From Verrucomicrobiota bacterium (GTDB lineage Bacteria; Verrucomicrobiota; Verrucomicrobiia; Chthoniobacterales; SZAS-18), in NCBI GenBank assembly GCA_018240025.1, contig JAFEGM010000066.1, positions 1 to 64,000 of the forward strand: a stretch of DNA of 64,000 bases. The letters are read 5' to 3'. Under the pieces are notes generated by a model. It made no database searches and was not told the DNA's origin. It saw only the letters and a list, made by a program, of their open reading frames with translations. Both the position numbers and the translations under genes were made by a program. This document shows positions 18,323 through 26,036 of the stretch, one piece after another; position 1 is the stretch's first letter; every line of letters begins with the position of its first letter.

Positions 18323-19918
18323 CTACCTGACGTCCGCCCATTTCAGCTTGAAGCGTGCAAGGTACTTCCGCAGTCGGTCGGCGTCGTTCGCGACCTTCCG
18401 CTGCGTCCGCGAAACGGCGAACAGGGCCCGTCCAGCCTCGCTGAGCGTGGGCTGAGCGCGAATGGTCCGGAGCACGCAGGCGAGCTGCGCACGGTCGAAG
18501 AGATCGAGTTGGGCCACGCCTTCGCCGAGGACCTCGTGCAGGAGGTCGTCGTCGGGGCCGGGCGTCGGCTGCGGGCGCCAGCCGCGCTGGAGCCGGGCGA
18601 TCTCGGCCTGCAGCACCGCGTGACTGATGCGACCGGCCGGCGCCAGCGTGGCCATGCGGACGACGGCGGCGTTCAGGTCGCGGAAGTTCGCGCTCCAGGC
18701 GGCTGCGGGCGACTGCGCGAAGGCGAGGAAGGCGGCGCGCACGTCCTTGGCCATGCCGATGCGACGGCCCAGCCGCTGACTCGCCGCGGCCAGTTCGTGG
18801 TCGAGGTTCGGCTCGATGTCCTCCCGCCGGCGCGCGAGTCCAGGCAGTTCGAAGGTCCACAGGTTCAGCCGGGCCAGCAGATCTTCGCGAAACGTGCCCC
18901 GGCCGACGGCCGCATGGAGGTCGCGATTCGTGCCGGCGATGAGCTGGAAGTCGCTGGCCACCTCGTCATCGGCTCCGACCGGCAGAAAGCGCTTCTCCTC
19001 CAGCGCGCGCAGGAGCATGGCCTGTTCGTCCGCGCCGAGTTCGCCGATTTCATCGAGGAAGAGCAGCCCACGGTGCGCCGCCCGGAGCAGACCGGGGCGA
19101 TCCCGCTGCGCCCCGGTGAACGAACCGCGCACGTGTCCGAAGAGCGTGCTGGCCGCGGTGTCGCCGCGCAGCGTGGCGCAATTCACCTCGACGAAGCCGC
19201 CGCTCAGCTGATGTCGCTGCTTCTTGAGTTCGAAAACCCGCCGTGCCAGCGACGATTTGCCCGCGCCGGTCGGCCCCATCAGCAGCAGGGGATCGCGCGA
19301 GGCCACCGCCACGTGCTCGATCTCCTCGATCATCCGGTTGAAGGCCGCATTGCGCGTGGCGATGCCGCTCTTCAGAAACGAGTGGGCCGCCTGCGCCTCC
19401 TGCGCGAAGCGCACCGCGATCCGATCGTAGCGCGAGAGATCGAGATCGATGATGGCGTAACGCCCCGGCCCGCGGTCGTTCTTGCGCTCGGGCGGGGCCG
19501 TCTGCACGAGCCGTCCCGGAATGCGGCGCGACTCGGTGAGCAGGAACAGACAGATCTGCGCCACATGCGTGCCCGTGGTGATGTGGACCAGGTAGTCCTC
19601 CTTCTCCGGCTGGAAGCGCGCACGATCCGCGTAGTCGGCCAGCACGCCATAGACCTCCTCGAAGTCCCACGGATCCTCGAATTCAACCGCCTGCCGCCGG
19701 ACTTCGCTTTCCGGCGAGACGCTGACGAAGTCGCGCGCGACCGTCTCCGCCAGCGTCTGGTGCTTCACGCTGTGCAGCAGTTCGAGGCGGTCCACCAACA
19801 GGTCCTCATGCTGTCCGAGCGACACGGTCGGACGCCAGTTTTCCCAGCGATGCGAACCCGCGCCGCCGTCGATCTGGGTGCCGAGCAGCCCCACGATGAC
19901 GAGTTTTTTCCGCCGCAT
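18323..19918 (-). CDS. rtcR: RtcR, CARF-domain sigma-54 activator of RNA repair
   Basis: The 531-residue regulator has an N-terminal CARF-type RtcR domain, 'VIVGLLGTQIDGGAG' then 'WRPTVSLGQHEDLLVDRLELL'. The central AAA+ domain has Walker A 'GPTGAGKSS' (215-223), the sigma-54 contact loop GSFTGA (265-270) and Walker B 'LLFLDE' (285-290). The tail is C-terminal helix-turn-helix-like. In enterobacteria RtcR is kept silent by its CARF domain until damaged RNA, especially tRNA fragments with 2',3'-cyclic phosphate, relieves inhibition. It then drives transcription of the rsr-Y RNA-rtcBA operon. Here it diverges from that operon, with 254 bp between start codons holding a sigma-54 promoter and phased repeats. 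Confidence 0.96.
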   Translation of the reverse strand: MRRKKLVIVGLLGTQIDGGAGSHRWENWRPTVSLGQHEDLLVDRLELLHSVKHQTLAETVARDFVSVSPESEVRRQAVEFEDPWDFEEVYGVLADYADRARFQPEKEDYLVHITTGTHVAQICLFLLTESRRIPGRLVQTAPPERKNDRGPGRYAIIDLDLSRYDRIAVRFAQEAQAAHSFLKSGIATRNAAFNRMIEEIEHVAVASRDPLLLMGPTGAGKSSLARRVFELKKQRHQLSGGFVEVNCATLRGDTAASTLFGHVRGSFTGAQRDRPGLLRAAHRGLLFLDEIGELGADEQAMLLRALEEKRFLPVGADDEVASDFQLIAGTNRDLHAAVGRGTFREDLLARLNLWTFELPGLARRREDIEPNLDHELAAASQRLGRRIGMAKDVRAAFLAFAQSPAAAWSANFRDLNAAVVRMATLAPAGRISHAVLQAEIARLQRGWRPQPTPGPDDDLLHEVLGEGVAQLDLFDRAQLACVLRTIRAQPTLSEAGRALFAVSRTQRKVANDADRLRKYLARFKLKWADVR

Positions 19919-20085: not shown

Positions 20086-20101
20086 TGGCACGCCGCGAGC
20101 A
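20086..20101 (+). promoter_or_regulatory. Sigma-54 (-24/-12) promoter of the rsr-rtcBA operon
   Basis: TGGCACG, four bases, then GAGCA: the -24 GG (20087-20088) and the -12 GC (20099-20100) have the required ten-base spacing. The -24 half matches the consensus TGGCACG perfectly. The -12 half matches three of five positions of TTGCA. Initiation would be near 20112, about 60 bases before the rsr start codon. Confidence 0.7.
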
Positions 20102-20172: not shown

Positions 20173-21726
20173 ATGGCCTCCAAGACTCTCTTCCAGACCG
20201 TCCGCGGCGCGCTCACGCCCAAGGCCACCGCGCGCAACGAAGCCGGCGGCAAGGCCTTCGCCTTCAGCCCGCGCCACGCGCTCGCGCAGTATGCCGCGAC
20301 GGGCTGCCTGAACTCGACCTACTACGCCAGCGCCGAAACGCAGCTGGAGAAGGTCCTCGAACTGGCCGGCCAGGTGGACGTGAAGTTCGTCGCCCAGACG
20401 GCCCTCTACGCCCGCACCCGCGGCCACATGAAGGACCTGCCGGCGCTGCTCTGCGCCGCGCTGGCCACGCTCGACGCCAAGCTGCTCGAGCGCGTCTTCG
20501 CCCGCGTGATCGACGACGGCCGCATGCTGCGCAATTTCGTGCAGATCGTCCGCAGCGGTGCGGCCGGCCGCAAGTCGTTCGGCTCGGCGCCCAAGCGCAT
20601 GATCCGCGCCTGGTTCGCCCAGCGCGACGACGCCGCGGTCTTCCGCGCCAGCGTGGGCCAGAGCCCGTCGCTCGCCGACGTGGTCAAGATGGTCCACCCG
20701 CGCCCGACGGATGCCGCCCGCACCGCTCTCTACGCCTGGCTGATCGGCCGTCCGTATGAGGCCGCCCAGCTGCCGCCGCTCGTGCAGCAGTTCGAGGCCT
20801 ACAAGGCCGGCCAGACGGGCGAGCTCCCGGACGTGCCGTTCCAGATGCTGACCGCGCTCGAACTCGACCGCGCCGCCTGGACGGAGATCGCCCGGCGCGC
20901 CTCGTGGCAGACGCTGCGCATGAACCTCAACACCTTCGCCCGCCACGGCGTGTTCGAAGATGCGGCGGTCACGCGCGAGCTGGCCAACCGCCTGCGCCAG
21001 CCGGAGCTCATCCGCCGCGCGCGCTGCTTCCCGTATCAGCTCCTGCAGGCCTTCCAGGCTGCGCAGGACGTGCCGGCGGCCATCCGCGACGCGCTGCAGG
21101 ACGCCATGGAGGTGGCCACGCAGAACGTGCCTGCCTTCGCCGGCCAGGTCGTCGTCTGCCCGGACATCTCGGGCTCGATGCACTCGGCCGTCACCGGCTA
21201 CCGCCAGGGCGCCACGAGCCGCACGCGCTGTCTCGACGTCGCTGCGCTGGTCGCGGCCACGGTCCTGCGCAACAACCGCAGCGCCCAGGTGCTGCCGTTC
21301 AGCGACGACGTGGTCGCCTGCTCGCTCAATGCCCGCGACAGCGTGATGACGAATGCCACCACGCTGGCCCGTCTGCCGAGCGGCGGTACGAACTGCTCCG
21401 CTCCGCTGCGCGCCCTCAACGCGCGCCGCGCCCAGGCCGACCTCGTGCTCATGGTCTCGGACAACCAGTCCTGGGTCGATTCGCACGGCGGTGGTCGCAG
21501 CACGGCCACGATGCAGGAGTGGGCCGCCTTCCGGGCCCGCAACCCGCAGGCGCGGCTGGTCTGCCTCGACCTGCAGCCGTATGCGACCACGCAGGCGGCC
21601 GAGCAGGCGGACATCCTCAACATCGGCGGCTTCTCGGACGCGGTCTTCGACCTGATCGCGACCTTCGCGGCCGGTGAACTCCAGGCCGACCACTGGGTCG
21701 GCGAAATCGAAAAGATCGAGCTCTAA
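20173..21726 (+). CDS. rsr: Rsr, bacterial Ro60 (TROVE domain) RNA-binding protein
   Basis: The 517-residue protein has the N-terminal TROVE/HEAT-repeat ring ('FSPRHALAQYAATGCLNSTYYA', 'FVAQTALYARTRGHMKDLPALLC') and a C-terminal von Willebrand A domain. The MIDAS motif 'DISGSM' starts at Asp331 and continues with Thr/Asp residues in 'GGTNCSAPL' and 'LMVSDNQSW'. Ro60 proteins form a ring that binds Y RNAs on the outside and the 3' ends of misfolded RNAs through the cavity, and can hand substrates to exoribonucleases. It is the first gene behind the sigma-54 promoter. The six-element Y RNA array follows immediately, as expected for a Ro60 partner locus. Confidence 0.97.
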   Translation: MASKTLFQTVRGALTPKATARNEAGGKAFAFSPRHALAQYAATGCLNSTYYASAETQLEKVLELAGQVDVKFVAQTALYARTRGHMKDLPALLCAALATLDAKLLERVFARVIDDGRMLRNFVQIVRSGAAGRKSFGSAPKRMIRAWFAQRDDAAVFRASVGQSPSLADVVKMVHPRPTDAARTALYAWLIGRPYEAAQLPPLVQQFEAYKAGQTGELPDVPFQMLTALELDRAAWTEIARRASWQTLRMNLNTFARHGVFEDAAVTRELANRLRQPELIRRARCFPYQLLQAFQAAQDVPAAIRDALQDAMEVATQNVPAFAGQVVVCPDISGSMHSAVTGYRQGATSRTRCLDVAALVAATVLRNNRSAQVLPFSDDVVACSLNARDSVMTNATTLARLPSGGTNCSAPLRALNARRAQADLVLMVSDNQSWVDSHGGGRSTATMQEWAAFRARNPQARLVCLDLQPYATTQAAEQADILNIGGFSDAVFDLIATFAAGELQADHWVGEIEKIEL

Positions 21727-21764: not shown

Positions 21765-21794
21765 CCGGGGCTGACGCACACCCATTCTCCAATT

Positions 21795-21858
21795 TCGCCG
21801 GATGCAGCCGGGAGTACATTCACCCATGTATCCCCTCTCGGCGTTCCCTTGCCGGCGA
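21795..21858 (+). ncRNA. Y-RNA-like element 1 (minimal hairpin, 64 nt)
   Basis: Hand folding gives a closing stem TCGCCGG/CCGGCGA (21795-21801 with 21852-21858). An asymmetric internal loop (ATGCA against nine bases) follows. An eight-pair inner stem (807-814 with 835-842 of the 21 kb block, one G-T pair) leads to a TACAT/ATGTA hairpin with loop TCACCC. The 5' strand GGATGC and the following GAGTACA match the conserved strand in the other five elements. There is no tRNA-like core, so this resembles a reduced, Ro-binding-only Y RNA. Confidence 0.6.
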
Positions 21859-21885
21859 TCTCTACCCATCAAGAAAGGACCCATT

Positions 21886-21996
21886 CTCGCTCTTTGGACG
21901 AATGCGGACGGGACTACATCACCCAACGCGACGCAGCCTGATTCGCTGCAGCCGGTCACGGCCCGCACTCCCGCCCCCCTCGTCGCCCAAAGCGAG
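21886..21996 (+). ncRNA. Y-RNA-like element 2 (degenerate tRNA-like core)
   Basis: The closing stem is CTCG/CGAG plus CTTTGG/CCAAAG plus ACGA/TCGT (21886-21901 with 21980-21996, two small bulges). GAATGC and GGGACTACA occupy the conserved 5' strand. Inside, CGGGA pairs with TCCCG. A T-arm-like hairpin (GCAGC, 7-base loop CTGATTC, GCTGC; 21933-21949) and a capped short stem (GCCG-GTCA-CGGC; 21951-21962) follow. No D arm is present and the T loop is not canonical, so the tRNA mimicry looks reduced. Confidence 0.55.
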
Positions 21997-22137
21997 ATCC
22001 ATTCCGTGACGAATGCCGATGGAACTACAAGGAACCCGGAGACGCAGGTTCGAGTCCTGCCCCGTCGAAATTGCCGACGGGTACGCCAGCGGCTGAGCGA
22101 CGGGATGTTCCTCAAATCTTGTCGTCACGTTCGGATC
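21996..22137 (+). ncRNA. Y-RNA-like element 3 with circularly permuted tRNA-like core
   Basis: The closing helix is GATCC/GGATC plus CGTGACGA/TCGTCACG (22005-22012 with 22122-22129). The conserved strand GAATGC...GGAACTACA follows. GGAAC pairs with GTTCC. CCCG/CGGG (22035-22038 with 22101-22104) sits where an anticodon stem would. The T arm is canonical (GCAGG-TTCGAGT-CCTGC, 22044-22060). Next comes a seven-pair acceptor-like stem CCCGTCG/CGACGGG (22061-22067 with 22075-22081) closed by a seven-base loop, then TA and a D-arm-like segment. The 3' half therefore precedes the 5' half. Confidence 0.75.
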
Positions 22138-22153
22138 GACCCCACCCACCTTC

Positions 22154-22276
22154 GCGCACGCCGGATGCCGCCTGGACTACAGGCAGAGCGCCTGCTTCGG
22201 CAGGAGGCCCGGGCTCAAGCCCCGGTCCGCTTCGGCGGATAGCTCAGAAATCGTCCGGCTCCCTTTGCCGGTGCGC
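22154..22276 (+). ncRNA. Y-RNA-like element 4, tRNA-Ala-like core opened in the D loop
   Basis: The closing stem is GCGCAC/GTGCGC (22154-22159 with 22271-22276) and the inner stem CTGGAC/GTCCGG (22172-22177 with 22253-22258). The core reads, in order, D-stem 3' strand GAGC (22186-22189), anticodon-like stem CCTGC-TTCG-GCAGG, and T arm CCGGG-CTCAAGC-CCCGG. A capped acceptor-like stem TCCGC-TTCG-GCGGA, the bases TA, and D-stem 5' strand GCTC (22242-22245) follow. GAGCGCCTGC...GCAGGAGG strongly resembles bacterial tRNA-Ala, with the anticodon loop replaced by a UUCG tetraloop. Confidence 0.8.
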
Positions 22277-22289
22277 ACACGACACCCTT

Positions 22290-22417
22290 TCGCGGCGAAT
22301 GCCGGCGGAACTACATGACCCAGCAGTCCGGGTTCGATTCCCGGCCGACTCCCGAAGAAGTCGGCAGCTCGAAGGTCGAGCTCTGGATGAGCGTTCCGCA
22401 AACCGTGGTCGCCGCGA
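22290..22417 (+). ncRNA. Y-RNA-like element 5 with circularly permuted tRNA-like core
   Basis: The closing stem is TCGCGGCGA/TCGCCGCGA (22290-22298 with 22409-22417). The inner stem is GCGGAAC/GTTCCGC (22305-22311 with 22393-22399), flanking an asymmetric internal loop. An anticodon-stem-like CCAG/CTGG (22320-22323 with 22383-22386) leads to T arm CCGGG-TTCGATT-CCCGG (22328-22344). A six-pair capped acceptor CCGACT/AGTCGG (22345-22350 with 22359-22364) follows, then two bases and a D arm GCTC-GAAGGTC-GAGC (22367-22381). Confidence 0.8.
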
Positions 22418-22447
22418 TCTCGGGCCTTCAAATTCCACCCACCCTTC

Positions 22448-22611
22448 CTTCCAGCCTCGCGGTTCGCGGCGAATGCCGACGGGACTACATCCTACTACGA
22501 TCGTGGTCGCGGGTTCGAGTCCCGCCGGCTCCAAGTTTCGGAGCCGTAGCTCAGGGGTAGAGCACGCCAACGTCCCGTCATTCTCGTCGCCGCGAACCGC
22601 GCGGCTGGAAG
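22448..22611 (+). ncRNA. Y-RNA-like element 6, best-formed permuted tRNA mimic
   Basis: The closing stem has 23 of 24 pairs (22448-22471 with 22588-22611). GAATGC and GGGACTACA form the conserved strand. The inner stem is ACGGGAC/GTCCCGT (22479-22485 with 22572-22578). The T arm is GCGGG-TTCGAGT-CCCGC (22509-22525). The perfect seven-pair acceptor CGGCTCC/GGAGCCG (22526-22532 with 22540-22546) is capped by a seven-base loop. Bases TA (positions 8-9 of a tRNA) lead to D arm GCTC-AGGGGTA-GAGC (22549-22563). All classic arms except the anticodon arm are present, in permuted order. Confidence 0.85.
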
Positions 22612-22622
22612 CATCGGCAATG
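22606..22622 (+). promoter_or_regulatory. Shine-Dalgarno buried in the Y RNA closing stem
   Basis: TGGAAG (22606-22611), the best ribosome binding site for the ATG at 22620, is the 3' strand of the closing stem of element 6. It pairs there with CTTCCA (22448-22453). Folding of the Y RNA and access to this start codon are therefore mutually exclusive in the unprocessed transcript. Confidence 0.6.
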
Positions 22623-23321
22623 AACTACTCCAGCCTCGATCAAGCCATTCGGCGTCATCGGCTCGCCTGGCGGCTGCTGCTGTATGCTGCGCAACACGAC
22701 CTGCAGGCCCAGCCGCGTTTCGGGCGGCCCCTGCTTTCCATCTGGTCGCAGGAGTACGGTGCGGCTGCGTGGATTTACGATCATCCGTTCCCTCTGCCCG
22801 ACGACCGGCAGCCAGCGAAGTCCGAACTCTGCCAGATCTTCCAAATGCTCGCTCCGTTCGCCTCCGCGCTCCTGCGGCTGGCTCAGCTGCCCAGTTTCGG
22901 TGAATTGGCCCCGTTTCGGCTCGCCTGCCAGTCCTGGCGTCGTCCGCCCGGCAAGAAGGCGGTGGAGCACGCGCAGCTCGAGGTGGAACAGCACATCGCC
23001 GGCCTTCGCCGCTGGACTGTCGAGTGCCTGCTCGGCGAAGCCGAGTTCTCGTGGGTGGATGGCGGCTACGACTCGTTCATCGAATCTTTCGCTCGCATGC
23101 CGTCGTTGGACGTCGACCTGAACCTGTATGCCTACGGCCTCGCGCTCAATTCCAATCATCGCGCGGCCTTCAAAGGAACCGAAGCCCACATCCTCTGGCT
23201 GATGCTGCCCGACACCCTCCGGTGCGAACTCTCCGCAACTCTCGTCTTCGCCGCCCGTGATCGCCTCCTCGTGGCACTCGAGAGCTACGCCGACACGCTG
23301 ACCGCTCCACCTGCCGCCTAG
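22620..23321 (+). CDS. Unrecognised protein in the RNA-repair operon (233 aa)
   Basis: I do not recognise a family. The protein is soluble, without signal peptide or membrane segments, and probably largely helical. It starts 'MNYSSLDQAIRRHRLAWRLL', has Trp/aromatic-rich stretches ('WSQEYGAAAWIYDHPFPLP', 'AEFSWVDGGYDSFIESFARM') and several cysteines. The ATG at 22620 lies nine bases after the last Y RNA stem. The gene ends 42 bp before rtcB, separated by a pyrimidine-rich 7-bp repeat. Its place between the Y RNAs and the ligase suggests a role in RNA handling or sensing, which is inference from position only. Confidence 0.75.
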   Translation: MNYSSLDQAIRRHRLAWRLLLYAAQHDLQAQPRFGRPLLSIWSQEYGAAAWIYDHPFPLPDDRQPAKSELCQIFQMLAPFASALLRLAQLPSFGELAPFRLACQSWRRPPGKKAVEHAQLEVEQHIAGLRRWTVECLLGEAEFSWVDGGYDSFIESFARMPSLDVDLNLYAYGLALNSNHRAAFKGTEAHILWLMLPDTLRCELSATLVFAARDRLLVALESYADTLTAPPAA

Positions 23322-23363: not shown

Positions 23364-24851
23364 ATGATCACCGCCACCGGCGAAGCCACCGGCTTCCTCC
23401 CCGCCCGCGACTCCCGCGGCAAGCCCATCACCGTCATCGGCACCGACGCCATTCGTCAGGGGTTCGATGCGAAGTGCCTGGAGCAGGCGCTCAACTCGCG
23501 CGGCGCTCCCGGCGTGACCGAACTGGTGCTCAACCCCGACGCGCACGCCGGCTACGGCGCGCCGGTCGGGTGCGTGCTGGTCTCGCCGACCCACATCTAT
23601 CCGGGACCGGTCGGCGTCGACATCAAGTGCTCCATGAGCCTCCTGGCGCTCGATCTGCCGGCCGAGGCGGTGGCGGAGAAATCGGTCCGCCGCGCGCTCA
23701 TCAACGCCATTTGCGAACGCACGCCGACCGGCGCCGGCCGCGGCCAGCGCACGGCCCGCAAGTCGCGCGCGGTCTCGCCCGAGTTGGGCCGCCAGGTCGT
23801 GACCGAGGGCGCGTCGGCCGCGGTCTGCTCGGCGCTCGGCATTCCGACCGACTGGGCCGCGCGCTGCGAGGATGCGTTTCACGTCGGCCACGACGACACC
23901 CGCGACGCGCTGGCCGCTCGCCTCGACCGCCTGACCGCCGCGGGCGCCCTGCCGCGCTTTGCCGACAAGATGACGCAGCTCGGCAGCTACGGCGGCGGCA
24001 ACCATTTCGGCGAATGCGAGGCCGTCGAGGTCGCCCAGAACGACCGCGCCCGCGCCGTGGCCGAGGTCTTCGGGCTGCGCGATGGCGGGCTCGCCTTCCT
24101 CTCGCATTGCGGCTCGCGCGGCTTCGGGCACAACCTGGCCAGCGGACAGTTCGCCGCGCTGCAGCAGTTCTTCCGCACCTGGGGTCTGCCGCTCCCGGGC
24201 GAGGACAAGGAGCTGGTCTACGCGCCGCTCGGCACGCCGCAGGCGAACGACTACCTCGACGATCTCGCCCTCGGTTCGAACTTCGCGACCGTGAATCATC
24301 TGCTGATCAACGCGCTCGTGCTGGAGGCCTTCCAGGAGGTCATCCCCGGCACCCGCGGGCAGCTGGTCTATTTCATCAGCCACAACATCGCCCGCCGCGA
24401 GATCGTGGAAAACCACCCGGCCTGGGTGCACCGCAAGGGCGCCACCCGCGCCTTTCCCGCGGGGCACCACGCGCTGCGCGACACGCCGTTCGCCGAGACG
24501 GGGCATCCGATCCTGCTGCCGGGCAATCCGACCGCCGGATCCTGCGTGATGGTAGCCGACCCGGGCGCGGCGCTGAGCTGTTATTCGGTCAATCACGGCG
24601 CCGGACGCGCGAAGGGCCGCAAGGCCGCGATTCGCGAGCTCGACCAGCGCACGGTCGACGACGAGTTCGCGGCTGCCGACATCCTGACCAACTGCCGTTT
24701 CTATCCGAAGGACGAGGCCCCCGCTGCCTACAAGGACTTCAACGAAGTCCTGCGCAGCGTGGAGAAGGCCGGCCTGGCCAGCGAAGTCGCACGCCTGCGC
24801 GCCCGCTTCGTCATCAAGGACGCGGACGAATCGCTCCGCGGCGCGGCTTAG
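23364..24851 (+). CDS. rtcB: RtcB, RNA 3'-phosphate/2',3'-cyclic phosphate ligase
   Basis: RtcB joins 2',3'-cyclic-phosphate or 3'-phosphate ends to 5'-OH ends using GTP and Mn2+. The 495-residue protein has 'LVLNPDAHAGYGAPVGCVL', the metal-binding cysteine in 'GVDIKC' (near residue 89), 'GSYGGGNHFGECE', 'CGSRGFGHNLA', 'HRKGATRAFPAG' and the guanylylated histidine in 'VNHGAGRAKGRKAA' (near residue 411). All catalytic motifs look intact. No archease gene is seen in the window. It sits between the unknown 233-residue gene and rtcA, and should be controlled by RtcR. The start follows the CCTCCCT repeat directly. Confidence 0.97.
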   Translation: MITATGEATGFLPARDSRGKPITVIGTDAIRQGFDAKCLEQALNSRGAPGVTELVLNPDAHAGYGAPVGCVLVSPTHIYPGPVGVDIKCSMSLLALDLPAEAVAEKSVRRALINAICERTPTGAGRGQRTARKSRAVSPELGRQVVTEGASAAVCSALGIPTDWAARCEDAFHVGHDDTRDALAARLDRLTAAGALPRFADKMTQLGSYGGGNHFGECEAVEVAQNDRARAVAEVFGLRDGGLAFLSHCGSRGFGHNLASGQFAALQQFFRTWGLPLPGEDKELVYAPLGTPQANDYLDDLALGSNFATVNHLLINALVLEAFQEVIPGTRGQLVYFISHNIARREIVENHPAWVHRKGATRAFPAGHHALRDTPFAETGHPILLPGNPTAGSCVMVADPGAALSCYSVNHGAGRAKGRKAAIRELDQRTVDDEFAAADILTNCRFYPKDEAPAAYKDFNEVLRSVEKAGLASEVARLRARFVIKDADESLRGAA

Positions 24852-25007: not shown

Positions 25008-26036
25008 ATGAAGTCACGTTTGATCGAAATCGACGGCAGCGTCGGCGAAGGCGGCGGGCAGATCCTGCGCACCTCGCTCTCGCTTTCGCTGTTGACCGGC
25101 CAGCCGGTGCGGGTCACGTCGATCCGCGCGGGACGGCGCAAGCCGGGCATCCTGCGGCAGCACCTGACCGCCATCCGAGCCGCGCTGGAGATCAGCGGCG
25201 GCGTGGCGGATGGCGCGGAACTGGGCTCGCGCGAGCTCGTTTTCCGGCCGGAGAAAATCGTTCCCGGCGACTACCGTTTTGCCGTCGGCACGGCAGGCAG
25301 TGCGACGCTCGTGCTCCAGACGATCCTGCCGGCGCTCATGCTGGCGTCGGGGCCGAGCCAGCTCGTGCTCGAGGGCGGCACACACAATCCGCTCGCGCCG
25401 CCGTTCGATTTCCTCGAGCGCACGTTTCTGCCGCAGTTGGCCCGTTTCGGGCCGCAGGTCACGGCGCGGCTGGACCGGCCGGGCTTCTACCCAGCCGGCG
25501 GGGGGCGCATCGACATCTCCATCACGCCCGTGACGCGGCTGCAGCCCGTCGAGCTGCTGGAGCGCGGCGCGGACGGCGAGCGCGCCCTCATCGTCCATCT
25601 CGCGGCGCTGCCCAACCACCTCGCCCAGCGCGCCTTCGAACGTCTTTGCGCACGGCTGAACTGGCCAGACTCCTGTTGCCAGCGCCTGGTGCATTCCTCC
25701 GAACGCGGGCCGGGATTGGCCGTGGTGGCGCAGGTGAGTTCGGAGCAGATCACCGAAACCTTCAGCGGGTTTGGCGAACGCGGGCTGAAGACCGAAGCCC
25801 TAGCCGACGAACTGGCCGAACAGGTCCGCCGCTACTTGGCCTCCACGGCTCCAGTCGGCGAGTACCTGGCCGATCAACTGCTGCTCCCGCTCGCCCTCGC
25901 CGGCCGCGGTGCGTTCCGCGCCACGGGCCTTTCGCTGCATGCGCGGACCAATTTGGAGGTGATCGCAAAGTTCCTGCCGGTGCGCTGGAGCGTCGAGCCG
26001 CAGGCGGACGGGAGCACGGTGGTGGCACTGGGTTGA
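25008..26036 (+). CDS. rtcA: RtcA, RNA 3'-terminal phosphate cyclase
   Basis: RtcA adenylylates an RNA 3'-phosphate and converts it to a 2',3'-cyclic phosphate, a substrate for RtcB. The 342-residue protein has normal length. It has 'GSVGEGGGQILRTSLSLS' at the N-terminus, 'FAVGTAGSATLVLQTILPAL', 'GGTHNPLAPPFDFLERTF', 'PAGGGRIDISI' and the AMP-accepting His311 in 'SLHARTNLEVI'. It follows rtcB by 156 bp, mostly the inverted repeat at 24871-24983. Co-expression from the sigma-54 promoter is expected unless the hairpin attenuates transcription. Confidence 0.97.
   Translation: MKSRLIEIDGSVGEGGGQILRTSLSLSLLTGQPVRVTSIRAGRRKPGILRQHLTAIRAALEISGGVADGAELGSRELVFRPEKIVPGDYRFAVGTAGSATLVLQTILPALMLASGPSQLVLEGGTHNPLAPPFDFLERTFLPQLARFGPQVTARLDRPGFYPAGGGRIDISITPVTRLQPVELLERGADGERALIVHLAALPNHLAQRAFERLCARLNWPDSCCQRLVHSSERGPGLAVVAQVSSEQITETFSGFGERGLKTEALADELAEQVRRYLASTAPVGEYLADQLLLPLALAGRGAFRATGLSLHARTNLEVIAKFLPVRWSVEPQADGSTVVALG

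Follow-up and report, generated by a model that had tools for sequence, protein, structure and literature searches.

Background

The circular permutation of a tRNA fold within a stable natural RNA has, to our knowledge, been known until now from one Y RNA layout. The permutation of YrlA was established for the Salmonella RNA (PDB 6CU1) (PMC11472068), and the order of parts in the Rfam structure of the family agrees with it. In Deinococcus, a Y RNA tethers Rsr, the bacterial Ro60 ortholog, to PNPase, and the YrlA domain mimics the D, T and acceptor arms of tRNA (PMC8394870, PMC7790460); a role as a competitive inhibitor has also been proposed for this domain (PMC7790460). Permutation is further found in permuted tRNA genes, for example those of Cyanidioschyzon, which yield working tRNAs by circularisation and re-cutting, and one type of which is opened in the D loop (PMC3978253).

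Here we analyse an element, E4, from a Y RNA array of a Verrucomicrobiota bacterium (assembly GCA_018240025.1). It lies within a stretch of 64,000 nucleotides (contig JAFEGM010000066.1, positions 1 to 64,000), the whole of which is referred to as the window. E4 and its relatives carry a tRNA-like head opened in the D loop, a layout that we call D-open. On the evidence of sequence comparison, the D-open element is a second design of bacterial Y RNA.

Results

An RNA repair operon with six Y RNAs

Pfam searches delineate an RNA repair operon in the window, composed of rtcR, rsr/Ro60, a Y RNA array, rtcB and rtcA (Table 1), and in the Rsr tree its Rsr groups with Chthoniobacteraceae loci. The hallmarks of an RtcR-regulated RNA repair operon are present, namely a divergent rtcR, rtcB, rtcA and a sigma54 promoter, the last recognized by consensus and conserved position only. 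The promoter candidate departs from TGGCAC-N5-TTGCW at two positions and is not significant alone in the window; most of the 31 loci examined have a TGGCAC-type site with 0-2 mismatches, placed 49-144 nt upstream of rsr, the Variovorax site being a perfect match. The rsr-yrl-rtcB-rtcA operon is putatively under sigma54/RtcR control. ARAGORN finds no tRNA in the window; elsewhere in the same genome, approximately 12 low-scoring tRNAs form a dense array (G000:C79:36493-39357, locus L168).

Six Y RNA elements, all with the same Y motif, occupy the interval between rsr and rtcB. When scored against the Rfam YrlA family (RF02553), E3, E4b and E5 obtain 57.8-71.8 bits and E4 obtains 18.6 bits (E = 0.56); neither E4 nor the other D-open members tested, at 38.8 bits or less, reach the YrlA gathering score of 69 bits.

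Table 1. Coordinates of the operon, of the Y RNA array and of the parts of E4 within the window.
Feature	Position	Strand	Remarks
rtcR	18323..19918	-	divergently transcribed sigma54 activator; RtcR/CARF-type sensor domain; Pfam RtcR 270.9 bits, Sigma54_activat 160.4 bits
sigma54-type promoter candidate	20086..20101	+	TGGCACGCCGCGAGCA; 87 nt upstream of the rsr ATG
rsr, bacterial Ro60 ortholog	20173..21726	+	Pfam vWA_Ro60 and TROVE
E1	21792..21859	+	short YrlB-like hairpin without tRNA domain; RF02565 22.1 bits, below gathering score
E2	21885..21997	+	two-hairpin insert, not recognizable as tRNA; basis Y motif and fold
E3	22006..22128	+	standard YrlA order (T arm, acceptor, D arm); RF02553 57.8 bits
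E4	22154..22276	+	predicted D-loop-opened permuted tRNA mimic
E4, 5' Y-stem strand	22154..22181	+	conserved RATGC...GACTACA motif, common to all six elements and relatives
E4, D-loop 3' half and D-stem 3' strand	22182..22189	+	G18G19 22182-22183, A21 22185, GAGC 22186-22189
E4, anticodon stem	22191..22204	+	CCTGC-TTCG-GCAGG; UUCG cap, no anticodon
E4, variable loop and T arm	22205..22225	+	AGGC 22205-22208; CCGGG-CTCAAGC-CCCGG 22209-22225, 7-nt T loop CTCAAGC
E4, acceptor stem	22226..22239	+	TCCGC-TTCG-GCGGA; UUCG-closed, no free 3' end, no CCA
E4, U8 A9, D-stem 5' strand, A14 G15	22240..22247	+	U8A9 22240-22241, GCTC 22242-22245, A14G15 22246-22247
E4, 3' Y-stem strand	22252..22276	+	
E4b	22292..22418	+	standard YrlA order; RF02553 58.3 bits
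E5	22466..22596	+	standard YrlA order, anticodon-opened; RF02553 71.8 bits, above gathering score 69
233-aa ORF between Y RNA array and rtcB	22620..23321		no Pfam match
rtcB, RNA ligase	23364..24851	+	Pfam RtcB 325.2 bits
rtcA, RNA 3'-phosphate cyclase	25008..26036	+	Pfam RTC 259.2 bits

Structure of E4

Read from its 5' end, E4 passes from the Y stem to G18, G19, C and A21 of the D loop, the D-stem strand GAGC, G26, the anticodon stem CCUGC-UUCG-GCAGG and the variable loop AGGC. There follow the T arm with its CUCAAGC loop, the acceptor stem UCCGC-UUCG-GCGGA, U8 and A9, the D-stem strand GCUC, A14 and G15 and, finally, the returning strand of the Y stem. The motif C(UUCG)G thus stands for both the anticodon loop and the acceptor end. 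Set against tRNA numbering, the predicted head shows a nearly complete tRNA core with the D loop opened between positions 15 and 18. The D-stem strands and both capped stems named in the initial annotation all lie where it had placed them, and its view that E4 is permuted unlike its neighbours, with an opened D loop and tetraloop-sealed ends, is supported by the sequence order and by the relatives.

Minimum-energy folding of E4 recovers the D pair together with the anticodon and acceptor stems, and gives the T arm a shorter loop. Because folding energy alone is weak evidence in such a GC-rich sequence (z = -1.87; 8 of 200 shuffles fold as well), the structure rests on comparison rather than on energy. 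As predicted in this way, E4 almost certainly consists of a Y stem and a D-loop-opened tRNA core, both arms of which are closed by tetraloops.

Relatives with the D-open layout

The initial annotation had proposed a search of other rsr-rtcB loci for the same layout, and the layout does recur there. A layout descriptor scanned over rsr loci from public genomes, with 2.7 Mb of shuffled sequence as the control, recovers E4 and relatives and gives no match in the shuffled sequence. Same-family relatives with the D-open layout are L010:4149-4296, L010:4319-4430 (which has no anticodon arm) and L011:2730-2876; the scan adds members from a further Verrucomicrobiota genome and from Acidobacteriota and Planctomycetota. 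Eight of these elements served to build a covariance model, which was then run on 84 sequences, nearly all of them rsr loci. It returns 16 matches at 73 bits or more, the next match being a standard YrlA at 58.4 bits. Seven of the 16 were not among the training sequences, including those from Variovorax, Acidovorax and Scleromatobacter, and an eighth, the L010 element without an anticodon arm (matched at L010:4320-4428), had been left out. Variovorax paradoxus carries its D-open element at locus L074. By this model, the layout occurs in rsr loci of Verrucomicrobiota, Acidobacteriota, Planctomycetota and Burkholderiales, and the relatives from 80 rsr loci sit no more than about 3 kb from rsr.

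Whole-genome searches locate the D-open class in 17 of 101 genomes of the genus Variovorax, 3 of 349 genomes of the order to which that genus belongs, 10 of 343 Planctomycetota genomes and 3 of 347 Acidobacteriota genomes. Among the 289 Verrucomicrobiota genomes searched, a high score is confined to the genome of E4 itself; all others remain at or below 46 bits, where tRNAs and standard Y RNAs also score. The layout is absent from the same-genus genome G002, and some close relatives, Chthoniobacter flavus among them, yielded no member of the class.

Several reduced elements were seen in the course of these searches. One of them, from C. flavus (L017:6708-6819), is E4-like: both of its arms are UUCG-capped, and the GAGC/GCTC D stem is missing. 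Other reduced Y RNAs (L021:6708-6805, L028:1902-2001, L029:6676-6789, L044:4347-4446, L049:6730-6837 and L072:6923-7034) consist of GG followed by the T arm and the acceptor hairpin, with no D stem, some of them having a small anticodon-type hairpin as well; as a group they resemble shortened D-open elements.

Covariation and conserved residues

Forty-four D-open members were aligned by fitting to the model, which biases the alignment toward the structure; with that bias, standard pairs fill 95.0% of pair cells (n = 44), as against 48.5% or less when the 3' partners are slid. Two-sided changes occur at 29 of 32 pairs, and the covariation score is 0.600 (0.109 or less for slid partners). The T stem is 99% paired and the acceptor stem 97.5%, each with two-sided changes at all five pairs, and the Y stem is 85% paired in its outer and 97% in its inner part. 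The D stem, 98.8% paired, is mostly invariant GAGC/GCUC; two of its four pairs covary, with two-sided changes to GCGC/GCGC in L080 and GAGU/ACUC in L045. This D pair is long-range and intact in 42 of the 44 members, and no member could form a local D hairpin like that of YrlA. The initial annotation had named, as speaking against the structure, homologous loci that conserve neither the UUCG stems nor the GAGC/GCTC pair; the relatives, which keep the pair, are not of that kind.

The residues that make tertiary contacts in tRNA are similarly retained. G18G19 and A21 are present in all 44 members, A14 and C56 in 43, U8 in 42 and A58 in 40. U55 is found in only 29 of 44, C being common there in the Variovorax members, so that pseudouridine 55, which with dihydrouridine is among the tRNA-type modifications associated with YrlA, cannot be general in the class. 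The anticodon arm is present in 43 members, with stem sequences that vary freely, and 32 of the 43 arms end in a UNCG, GNRA or CUYG tetraloop; 30 of 44 acceptors end in UNCG or GNRA. Since varied tetraloops cap most of both arms, UUCG is, as far as the aligned members indicate, one solution to a general rule of sealing both ends. The emphasis that had been placed on the caps therefore holds for stable tetraloops, which usually occur on both arms, and fails for UUCG itself, which is not conserved.

Origin of the layout

A tRNA-Ala origin, suggested by the apparent resemblance of the 5' part of E4, is not supported: when E4 is compared with the 56 distinct tRNAs encoded in its genome, tRNA-Pro-type genes match the D/anticodon/T part best and tRNA-Ala ranks about sixth. 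Pro is also the commonest best match across the D-open class, with ties. The ARAGORN call of 'Lys-ctt' for L167 looks like a tRNA-Pro with a shifted anticodon.

On the Rsr tree the layout is patchy and weakly clustered (11 changes, versus 13.9 for shuffled labels), a count that fits one old origin followed by losses as well as several origins. A second D-open Y RNA family, resembling the class II tRNA-Leu, is represented by L085:7072-7214, L206-L208 and L210-L215 and occurs in 10 of 301 genomes from the family of Methylibium. Its members read GGTAGACGC ... long variable arm ... TGGCGGAG; their anticodon loop is replaced, and GCAA closes the acceptor. Because this tRNA-Leu-derived family is separate from that of E4, sequence comparison supports at least two origins of D-loop opening, from different tRNAs. 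Independent origins had been put forward for neighbouring members of the E4 array; they stand for the layout in general, and for E4 as against the other elements of its array they are plausible rather than proven.

Native-order tRNA heads were also observed on Y RNAs. In L035:6837-6951 and L044:4475-4589 the acceptor stem is replaced by the Y stem, and the 7-nt anticodon loop is still whole (CTTGAAA and CTTAAAA); L218 is a partial match (87% identity), and L047:6907-7020, with a UUCG-capped anticodon stem, may be of native order as well.

A further observation concerns Acidobacteriota rsr loci, which carry dense same-strand arrays of 9 to 33 tRNAs, mostly just upstream of rsr (L027, L029, L035, L038, L039, L044, L047, L049, L050, L053, L058, L063, L066, L072 and L083). 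In several loci these arrays adjoin or mingle with the Y RNAs. It is possible that they constitute a supply of spare tRNAs beside RNA repair.

Discussion

Taken as a whole, the features of E4 are probably best explained by an Rsr-tethered scaffold that mimics tRNA. That E4 is a Y RNA that binds Rsr is very probable: extrapolating from YrlA and the Deinococcus Y RNA, Rsr (Ro60) would grip the Y stem. The head would be tRNA-shaped, its D/T elbow lying at the foot of the Y stem and its anticodon stem free, and would offer its tRNA core and anticodon stem to a tRNA-binding partner, for which PNPase is the foremost candidate; by analogy, a tether role with PNPase seems to us evenly balanced between likely and unlikely. 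The core would face such a partner in another orientation than that of YrlA, presenting a different side. With neither an anticodon loop nor a 3' CCA, E4 is unable to decode, to be charged or to undergo cleavage in an anticodon loop, and is therefore expected to act permanently as a tether or mimic, not as a tRNA.

The main rival to the tether scaffold is a decoy, whose D/anticodon/T core would compete for anticodon nucleases or other tRNA-damaging enzymes during an RNA-damage response and whose capped anticodon stem could not be cut. This is unlikely, yet it has arguments on its side: the anticodon arm is kept in 43 of 44 members, mostly with a stable tetraloop, a competitive-inhibitor precedent exists for the YrlA domain (PMC7790460) and the operon is putatively RtcR-controlled. 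As a general function, however, it is opposed by L010:4319-4430, which has the D-open layout without an anticodon arm, by the many related elements that lack a D stem or an anticodon arm and by the free variation in anticodon stem sequences. Since L010:4319-4430 and related elements have lost the arm or the D stem, the anticodon arm is not essential to the D-open class.

It is very improbable that E4 is a decaying tRNA-derived pseudo-element, functionless in the array. The patchy distribution would suit decay, as would the outer Y stem of E4, less regular than those of its neighbours, and the lack of the layout in the same-genus genome G002; decay would not leave strong covariation, nor tertiary-contact residues that hardly vary, in four phyla. 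Still less credible is an ordinary YrlA in which the D-loop opening is an artefact of alignment or folding. Although the Y stem, T arm and acceptor hairpin are common to both, and partial Rfam YrlA matches (18.6-38.8 bits) occur in the D-open class, the long-range D pair in place of a local hairpin, the clear score gap between D-open members and standard elements and the covariation all contradict this reading. A permuted tRNA gene, circularised and re-cut to a working tRNA as in Cyanidioschyzon (PMC3978253), is next to impossible, for although the permutation point at 15/18 lies near the algal type I junction at 20/21, E4 has no anticodon loop and no CCA, its acceptor strands are joined by a tetraloop, its Y stem is conserved and ARAGORN calls no tRNA.

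The tethered tRNA mimic thus preferred has consequences beyond this locus. With a second layout found in four phyla and drawn from at least two tRNA types, the constant part of such RNAs would be the tRNA core and the Rsr-binding stem, not the junction point. Because the two layouts show the same core from different sides, the face of the tRNA mimic that an effector reads becomes testable. More tentatively, and with considerable doubt, rsr operons might be viewed as carrying a toolkit of Y RNAs in which the tRNA fold is shown via several entry points: anticodon-opened (YrlA), D-opened class I, D-opened tRNA-Leu and native order joined through the acceptor stem. Rsr would be tethered by each orientation to a different tRNA-handling enzyme, and the set would stem from repeated tRNA captures. 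The D-open members tested score under the YrlA cut-off, which points to a gap in Rfam and in genome annotation.

Comparison with known systems

In the broad sense E4 belongs with the bacterial Y RNAs, having a Y stem with the RATGC...ACUACA / UUGUC-type Rsr-binding motif and being encoded beside rsr. No family in Rfam 15 covers the D-open layout in the sequences scanned, novelty being otherwise judged on part of the literature. YrlB (RF02565) has the Y stem and operon position of E4 and, unlike it, no tRNA-like head; it is E1, not E4, that resembles YrlB. The permuted tRNA genes of red and green algae and Thermofilum include a D-loop-opened type, as in E4, and differ in giving working tRNAs, whereas the anticodon and acceptor stems of E4 are shut by tetraloops and its anticodon loop is absent (PMC3978253). 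With tRNA-Pro of the same genome and other class I tRNAs, E4 shares the D stem, position 26, the variable loop, the T arm and the tertiary-contact residues; those tRNAs, unlike E4, have a linear order, an anticodon and a CCA end. With YrlA (RF02553) it has in common the Y stem motif, the position in an rsr-rtcB operon, a permuted tRNA head and a closed acceptor stem. YrlA, however, is opened in the anticodon arm, where the Y stem takes the place of the anticodon stem, and runs in the order T arm, acceptor hairpin and D arm, while the order of E4 is D-stem 3' strand, anticodon stem, T arm, acceptor stem and D-stem 5' strand.
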